Source: an uncultured Holophagaceae bacterium
GTDB taxonomy: Bacteria; Acidobacteriota; Holophagae; Holophagales; Holophagaceae
Assembly: GCA_903880675.1 (NCBI GenBank)
Contig: CAIRQL010000029.1
Coordinates: 1 to 34,017 of the forward strand
DNA: 34,017 nt
Direction: 5' to 3'
The notes under the pieces are model-generated. The model saw only the letters and a list, made by a program, of their open reading frames with translations, made no database searches and was not told the origin of the DNA. Shown here piece after piece: positions 3,203-4,349 of the stretch. Position 1 is the first letter of the stretch. Each line of letters begins with the position of its first letter. The position numbers and the translations under genes were made by a program.

Positions 3203-3658
3203 GTGCTGAAACGGATGGTGGAAGGCAGTCGCTACCTGGTGGTCATCGGAGTGATCTCATCCCTGATCGCCTCTCTGGCGGTCTTCGTGTGGGGCCTGGT
3301 GAAGACTGGCGTCGTGGTGCTGGGCCTGCTCCGCACCGGGGGGGCGGACCCGCTGACGGTGGTGCGGCTCATCGAGCTCATGGACAAGTTCCTCATTGCC
3401 GTGGGCCTCTACATCTTCGCGGTGGGCCTCTATGAGCTGTTCATCGGGGACCTGGACCTGCCGGACTGGCTGGTGATCCATGACCTGCATGACATCAAGA
3501 GCCGGCTGAGTCAGATCCTGATCCTCTTCATGGCCGTGACCTTCCTGGAGCACCTGGTGGAGTGGAAGGAGCCCCTGGCCACCCTCTACTTCGCCGTGGC
3601 CATCACCCTGGTGATGGGGGCCCTGATCGCCTTCAACCGGGTGGTGGGGAAGGAGTAG
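3203..3658 (+). CDS. YqhA/UPF0114 family membrane protein
   Basis: 151 aa, multiple TM segments, motif GLYELFIGDLDLPDWLVIHDLHDIKSRLSQILILFMAVTFLEHLVEW typical of UPF0114; GTG start. Confidence 0.8.
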   Translation: MLKRMVEGSRYLVVIGVISSLIASLAVFVWGLVKTGVVVLGLLRTGGADPLTVVRLIELMDKFLIAVGLYIFAVGLYELFIGDLDLPDWLVIHDLHDIKSRLSQILILFMAVTFLEHLVEWKEPLATLYFAVAITLVMGALIAFNRVVGKE

Positions 3659-3704: not shown

Positions 3705-3747
3705 GCCCTCTCACGGCGGGAACAGGGGTTCGATCTGCCTTGGGACT
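3705..3747 (+). pseudogene. tRNA-Glu 3'-half fragment (anticodon loop to acceptor)
   Basis: gccctctcacggcgggaacaggggttcgat is identical to the intact tRNA-Glu (minus strand, 4187-4229) over 30 nt, then tcccc>ctgcc, then ccttgggact again; opposite orientation to the intact gene; T-stem pairing broken. Confidence 0.85.
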
Positions 3748-3749
3748 CG

Positions 3750-3822
3750 GCAGGTTGGACGGCGGGGAATCCCTCCGCATCACCCCTGCGGCTGCGCCTC
3801 CGGGGTGACGCTCCGGCCGCAC
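3750..3822 (+). repeat. 73-bp direct repeat, copy 1
   Basis: gcaggttggacggcggggaatccctccgcatcacccctgcggctgcgcctccggggtgacgctccggccgcac; one mismatch to 3958-4030. Confidence 0.95.
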
Positions 3823-3859
3823 CATCCGACCGAAGCGGAGCGAAGGGAGGATAGGACGG

Positions 3860-3907
3860 AATCCGCGAAGCGGATTGCCGCCCCGAAGGGGCGAGGACCG
3901 GAGGTCC
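3860..3907 (+). repeat. Cluster of three consecutive short hairpins with 3-nt purine loops
   Basis: aatccgc-gaa-gcggatt (3860-3876), cgcccc-gaa-ggggcg (3879-3893), ggacc-gga-ggtcc (3895-3907). Confidence 0.8.
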
Positions 3908-3929
3908 GAGTCACGATGAAGCAATTCAG

Positions 3930-3950
3930 TGACTTCGATCCCCCTTGGGG
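3930..3950 (+). repeat. 21-bp tRNA-T-arm-like repeat, copy A
   Basis: tgacttcgatcccccttgggg, identical to 4121-4141; resembles the tRNA-Glu 3' end ttcgattccccttggga. Confidence 0.85.
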
Positions 3951-3957
3951 GGGCATA

Positions 3958-4030
3958 GCAGATTGGACGGCGGGGAATCCCTCCGCATCACCCCTGCGGC
4001 TGCGCCTCCGGGGTGACGCTCCGGCCGCAC
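3958..4030 (+). repeat. 73-bp direct repeat, copy 2
   Basis: gcagattggacggcggggaatccctccgcatcacccctgcggctgcgcctccggggtgacgctccggccgcac; one mismatch to 3750-3822. Confidence 0.95.
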
Positions 4031-4120
4031 GGCTGGCTGCGCACGGGCCTCCGCCTGCGGCGGACCGGTCGGAACAGCCCCCCGGGCTGTCCCAACCTGG
4101 CCCTACCTGCGCGCCATCCG

Positions 4121-4141
4121 TGACTTCGATCCCCCTTGGGG
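4121..4141 (+). repeat. 21-bp tRNA-T-arm-like repeat, copy B
   Basis: tgacttcgatcccccttgggg, identical to 3930-3950. Confidence 0.85.
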
Positions 4142-4206
4142 CTACCAAACGCAGAAACCCGCGCAATGCGCGGGTTTCCGTTTGGTAGTCCCAAGGGGAA
4201 TCGAAC
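4124..4206. repeat. Long imperfect inverted repeat containing the tRNA-Glu 3' end
   Basis: cttcgatcccccttggggctaccaaacgcagaaacccgcgc (4124-4164) versus the reverse complement of gcgcgggtttccgtttggtagtcccaaggggaatcgaac (4168-4206); about 40-bp arms with three mismatches and a 2-bp bulge. Confidence 0.85.
4154..4178 (-). terminator. Terminator-like hairpin downstream of tRNA-Glu
   Basis: gaaacccgcgc-aat-gcgcgggtttc, GC-rich stem immediately 3' of the tRNA on the minus strand. Confidence 0.6.
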
Positions 4207-4257
4207 CCCTGTTCCCGCCGTGAGAGGGCGGTGTACTAACCGCTATACGATGGGACC
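4183..4257 (-). tRNA. tRNA-Glu (anticodon CUC), CCA encoded
   Basis: GGTCCCATCGTATAGCGGTTAGTACACCGCCCTCTCACGGCGGGAACAGGGGTTCGATTCCCCTTGGGACTACCA folds as a cloverleaf; anticodon loop CTCTCAC. Confidence 0.95.
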
Positions 4258-4274: not shown

Positions 4275-4349
4275 TGGTTGGGGAGGAAGGATTTGAACCC
4301 TCACCTGACGGTACCAGAAACCGTTGTCCTACCATTAGACCACTCCCCA
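4275..4349 (-). tRNA. tRNA-Gln (anticodon CUG), CCA encoded
   Basis: TGGGGAGTGGTCTAATGGTAGGACAACGGTTTCTGGTACCGTCAGGTGAGGGTTCAAATCCTTCCTCCCCAACCA; anticodon loop TTCTGGT. Confidence 0.95.

Follow-up and report, generated by a model that had tools for sequence, protein, structure and literature searches.

Structured repeat units at tRNA 3′ ends in Holophagaceae are candidate miniature, gene-free elements

Why should a tRNA gene be followed by several copies of its own 3′ end, with the conspicuous ones in the opposite orientation? The question is raised by a tRNA-Glu locus within the 34,017-nt stretch of DNA analyzed here in full (the window), contig C29 of a Geothrix MAG that is 72% complete (Acidobacteriota, Holophagaceae), the genus being assigned through matches to contigs of G. 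fuzhouensis and G. terrae. An earlier note had described tRNA-Glu copies spaced at about 200 bp and a 73-bp repeat, and its coordinates and spacings proved correct: the two 73-bp repeats are 99% identical and 208 bp apart, and all three tRNA-end copies match the gene closely (Table 1). Around the terminator-like hairpin, positions 4125–4162 and 4168–4205 form a 38-nt palindrome with 82% complementarity. In the direction of the tRNA, the order is tRNA-Glu, hairpin, inverted copy, core, 73-bp repeat, second inverted copy, unit 2 with its A element, second 73-bp repeat, and the 43-nt inverted copy. The window holds a two-unit array, partly decayed, whose second unit has been interrupted by an A repeat. 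The units had been taken to be inverted relative to the tRNA. This description fits the copy at the near end of each unit, but the units themselves run in the tRNA direction and carry a direct copy at the far end. Inverted copies alone are conspicuous in the window because the direct copies there have eroded to 9 nt. With Rfam, only tRNAs scored above threshold in the window and in six relatives' loci. The counterpart of inverted copy 3 in the sister species G039 (L022) is more decayed, the A element has matches in most Geothrix genomes (query 161–258), and a UPF0114 family gene (Pfam PF03350) lies directly past the array at 3203–3658.

Table 1 Features of the tRNA-Glu array in the window, listed in the direction of the tRNA.
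Feature	Position (nt)	Strand	Remarks
tRNA-Gln(ctg)	4275–4349	-	Co-directional, upstream neighbor of tRNA-Glu; ARAGORN and Rfam
tRNA-Glu(ctc), host gene	4183–4257	-	ARAGORN and Rfam
Terminator-like perfect hairpin	4154–4178	-	12-bp arms; center of the tRNA-end palindrome
Inverted copy 1 of tRNA-Glu 3′ end	4125–4147	+	TTCGATCCCCCTTGGGGCTACCA; within a 21/24 match to the 3′-terminal 24 nt of tRNA-Glu
Unit 1, class I structured core, intact	4023–4133	-	Covariance model R2, 121.9 bits, this core being one of the 17 sequences used to build R2
Unit 1, distal part, 73-bp repeat copy	3958–4030	-	
Unit 1, eroded direct copy of tRNA-Glu 3′ end	3972–3980	-	GGATTCCCC, 9 nt; a relative's locus (L061) has all 20 nt of the copy here
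Unit 2, inverted copy 2 of tRNA end and first core bases	3926–3950	+	GTGACTTCGATCCCCCTTGGGG; 3934–3949 is 94% complementary to the tRNA-Glu 3′ part over 16 nt
A element, separate dispersed REP-like repeat inside unit 2	3823–3917	no strand	CCATCCGACC...GAGTCA
Unit 2, distal part, 73-bp repeat copy	3750–3822	-	Eroded 9-nt direct copy (GGATTCCCC) at 3764–3772
Inverted copy 3, tRNA-Glu anticodon arm to acceptor	3705–3747	+	43 nt, 93% complementary to 4187–4229

The full layout is seen in relatives with intact units, where the 3′ end of the tRNA is followed by a terminator hairpin, then by an inverted copy of that end, by a structured core, and by a direct copy of it, often 20/20 nt. These units are gene-free, measure about 125–290 bp (~200 bp in the window), sometimes stand in tandem, and in many cases lie behind a strong terminator. 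At tRNA-Glu of G. fuzhouensis (G005) there are two full units, each with a perfect GATTCCCCTTGGGACTACCA end and with identical 75-nt blocks of tRNA end, terminator, and inverted end. In the same species, perfect 20/20 direct copies are found 3′ of Arg-ccg, Cys, Glu-ctc, Phe, Ser-tga, and Val-gac. Two divergent tRNA-Ser genes stand back to back in G005 and G008 (L096 and L129), both with units in varied states of decay, and form a natural dating series. Elsewhere in the window's own genome, contig C46 (L004 1480–1910) carries, next to AT-rich DNA, a tmRNA-like 3′ fragment (17.7 bits, under the cut-off of 47) and, after it, a complete unit whose 20-nt direct end is perfect. On contig C166 (L009 1119–1160), a tRNA-Glu-like half is joined to a tmRNA/tRNA-Glu(ttc)-like 3′ end near apparent recombinase and type I restriction genes.

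Two classes of core are found in these units, class I at Glu, Gln, Ser, Cys, Val, and Gly tRNAs (and at Pro in another genus) and class II at Pro, Thr, Arg, His, Met, and Asp tRNAs. The two look related through a common central hairpin module, and in most class II units the direct copy is reduced to a T-loop-like remainder. Linkage to tRNA genes was measured by comparing the region downstream of each of 95 tRNA genes, covering almost every tRNA locus in G005 and G008, with the gene's own tail. Seven of the 95 genes have a direct copy of 18/20 nt or better downstream, compared with a mean of 0.37 for tails of mismatched isotype and none upstream. Inverted copies of at least 14/16 nt lie downstream of eight, with none in any mismatched set and two upstream. 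Across all loci examined, inverted copies adjoin tRNAs of 19 isoacceptors, and occurrence throughout the genome with no tRNA association was not found. Matches to the core covariance models have a same-strand tRNA just upstream, mostly 27–57 nt away, at 71 of 80 loci, some of which had contributed sequences to the models; the remaining nine include contig ends and a unit displaced by an island. A weak match of a class II unit to tRNA-Sec (24.7 bits, cut-off 47) was set aside since the loop sequences vary, and a 23-nt core pattern in Frateuria lies within an apparent coding sequence and was taken as chance.

Orthologous loci allow occupied and empty sites to be compared. In G008, the tRNA-Gln(ttg) gene runs straight into ATGCTGTCCCGGGGG... 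(...CCCCAACCA|ATGCTGTCC...), whereas in G046 and G001 a ~190-bp element comes next, beyond which a second ...TCCTTCCTCCCCAACCA adjoins ATGCGTCCGGGGG... / ATGTTGTCCGGGGG..., so that the far copy is followed by the same downstream DNA (...CCCCAACCA|ATGCGTCC... / ATGTTGTCC...). This is a clean empty/occupied pair at a tRNA 3′ end, in which the original downstream sequence resumes past the far direct copy. The tRNA-Glu locus, occupied by two full units in G005, is bare in G008, where the terminator (AGAGAAATCTAGG...) resembles the sequence after the G005 array. A tree of the cores clusters mostly by tRNA identity, indicating that most cores are old residents and that transfers are rare. The exceptions include the Ser-gct core of G016, which is 75–82% identical to Glu and Gln cores but 52–56% identical to other Ser-gct cores, and whose unit ends in a perfect Ser-gct end. 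The Glu core of G046 falls among Ser cores, at the end of a long branch. As judged from these comparisons, some cores seem to have changed tRNA, with their ends matching the new one, and the elements appear to come, go, and jump between tRNA genes. The loss of encoded CCA from the occupied tRNA-Gln genes was considered as proof of end replacement; it amounts to a single base change and is suggestive only.

With the layout, the tRNA specificity, the paired empty and occupied sites, the tandem arrays, a covarying core, and cores at more than one tRNA all observed directly, we consider that the units are probably miniature, gene-free, non-autonomous elements that insert at the 3′ ends of Holophagaceae tRNA genes. 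The suggestion of a tRNA-seeded mobile repeat, made from the window alone, has held up well. Weighing against mobility are the rarity of transfers, the T-loop-like direct copies of most class II units, and the small number of tyrosine recombinase matches in complete Geothrix genomes; neither a circular form nor an excision was observed. Alternatively, the units could be immobile, locus-bound products of replication error, with fold-back copying at the terminator hairpin giving the inverted copy, slippage or unequal exchange producing the tandem units along with their direct copies, and the match to the tRNA being maintained by quasipalindrome correction. Every inverted copy indeed mirrors its own tRNA around the terminator, at the Gln locus the two arms of the palindrome carry the CCA-to-CGA change in mirror image, a very long palindrome on such a hairpin was found in G030 (L173), and the clustering of cores mostly by tRNA points the same way. 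However, this process leaves unexplained why one conserved, covarying core occurs at many tRNAs, why Glu-like cores stand at a Ser tRNA, and why units are nearly absent away from tRNAs, and we regard it as unlikely. The G030 palindrome itself (contig C40, L173 1440–1830) is near-perfect, has the terminator hairpin at its center between two class II units, lacks a tRNA, and is either an assembly artifact or a genuine fold-back duplication.

Covariation supports a conserved fold of the core in both classes. For class II (A1), 95% of cells are paired, with 34 doubly changed cells compared with 9.6 after shuffling and at most 9 after sliding; for class I (A2), there are 73, compared with 25.8 and at most 26. 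The observed count was reached in none of 500 shuffles for either class. G-U mismatches exceed A-C mismatches in class I helices (55:18) and, counted as distinct events, in the pairing of the tRNA with its inverted copy (34:11), while the class II totals of 105:17 are dominated by a single fixed U-G pair. The excess in class I helices and in the tRNA pairing points to folding of the sense strand. A noncoding RNA role for the locus, raised in the earlier note, is possible. In the manner of E. coli rttR, which is annotated as a small RNA, the core fold and the segment complementary to the tRNA might act within a read-through transcript to regulate 3′ processing, termination, or the quality of the tRNA, a function for which the element would be retained. 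The location of units on the same strand as the tRNA, at a fixed spacing from it, is consistent with such a function, as are the strong covariation and the G-U excess. However, a strong terminator precedes many units, some orthologous tRNAs in close species have no unit, and the G-U excess fits folding of RNA or of single-stranded DNA alike, with transcription-associated mutation as a possible confounder. We consider it unlikely that this function explains the units.

The proposed insertion of miniature elements at tRNA 3′ ends recalls larger elements that target the same sites. The suggestion that the locus may be a remnant of site-specific integration fits in kind, but no integrase lies within or beside the window's unit, and the units consist of repeats and a folded core. 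An island is present at tRNA-Glu in G010 (L139 2300–9800), where ~7 kb encoding a tyrosine integrase (Phage_integrase) and a DUF927/primase-type protein lie between the gene and the unit. Could the array in the window then be an attachment site left behind in tRNA-Glu by an ordinary island with its own integrase? Besides the G010 island, the 43-nt inverted copy in the window is about the length of an island att repeat. In contrast to the units, with their 20-nt ends, lack of genes, and common core at many tRNAs, the island repeats are direct and ~43–45 nt long, and the G010 unit lies past the island as seen from tRNA-Glu, making this origin highly improbable. The island is a phenomenon separate from the units, although it may account for the window's 43-nt inverted copy. 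Copies of 43–45 nt of the tRNA-Glu 3′ end also occur 3–38 kb from the gene in several other Geothrix. Complete Geothrix genomes have 5–6 tyrosine recombinase matches each, fewer than would be needed if every tRNA had a dedicated integrase.

If the units are mobile elements of this kind, insertion would occur by recombination at the ~20-nt tRNA 3′ end, so that the tRNA remains whole and the far side of the element gains another 3′ end, and the recombinase would act in trans. The tRNA end, hairpin, and inverted copy could fold on the sense strand into a duplex that is recognized, arrays could grow after insertion by unequal exchange, and palindrome correction or selection could preserve the match of both ends, inverted and direct, to the tRNA beside them. 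Folded single-strand attachment sites are known from the attC sites of integrons and the attP site of CTX phage. By analogy, and judged from fold potential, the paired inverted half-sites of the units lie on one strand and could form a duplex attachment site. A retroelement origin, in which the inverted copy is a tRNA primer-binding site, was considered and is unsupported.

Among known repeats, those at E. coli tyrT/tyrV (rtT/RttR, Rfam RF00391) are closest in form, and the comparison with tyrT in the earlier note holds well. There, tandem ~178-bp units directly 3′ of the tRNA each end in a 19/20 copy of its 3′ end, and in this analysis each was also seen to contain an inverted GGGGAAGGAT (10 nt, the complement of tRNA-Tyr ATCCTTCCCC), giving the same layout. 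The E. coli repeats differ in being confined to one tRNA in one group, whereas Geothrix units stand at about twenty tRNA genes, and in having an inverted copy of merely 10 nt and no dedicated terminator seen per unit. The Rfam RtT covariance model matched none of six Holophagaceae genomes while finding its E. coli control, and the reverse search of E. coli with the Geothrix core models was empty. The units may be said to resemble tyrT in working and layout, a likeness without sequence or model match that is not a claim of homology. With tRNA-targeting islands and integrative elements, they share a far-side direct copy of the tRNA 3′ end, an intact near-side tRNA, and empty sites in relatives, the end duplication and empty site being found together at tRNA-Gln and tRNA-Glu. 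They differ in their small size (125–290 bp), the lack of any gene and hence of an encoded integrase, the extra inverted copy, and the use of about twenty tRNA targets by one core family. REP/BIME sequences are likewise short, palindromic, intergenic, and multi-copy, and the A element in unit 2 looks REP-like, but the units are tied to tRNA 3′ ends and their orientation and are not dispersed irrespective of tRNA. A broader proposal, which we find somewhat unlikely, is that the units are a minimal class of mobile DNA not described before. Host tRNA 3′ ends would serve as both target and terminal repeats, with the ends re-tailored to each tRNA entered and a housekeeping or shared recombinase moving the folded single strand in trans, and the tyrT repeats of E. 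coli would be left over from this strategy in a different phylum.

The tyrT repeats, so far an isolated curiosity, now have a counterpart in a system that extends across a family, with dozens of members and two classes of covarying core. Its empty sites and apparent jumps make the origin and mobility of tRNA-end repeats testable, and it also allows a test of structured RNA in the trailer of a tRNA transcript. If mobile, the units would be among the smallest tRNA-targeting elements. We found no account of elements like these for Geothrix or Acidobacteria in the open-access literature, and no matches to the units in phage and plasmid collections. Class I is present in 41 of 47 Geothrix genomes and in both sister genera in the scan of these groups. 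Class II is confined to Holophagaceae among the 297 Acidobacteriota scanned, with matches listed in 21 of 22 sampled Geothrix genomes and two sister genera and none in the remaining ~270, where the stricter filters used at this scale may miss weak members. Tandem arrays of the A repeat, with 215–217-bp units, occur in G002 (L044 2673–3406) and G032 (L046 2585–3058). Each of these units holds the last codons and terminator of an apparent peroxiredoxin (ahpC-like) gene, and the arrays appear to be a case of gene-end capture at a protein gene.
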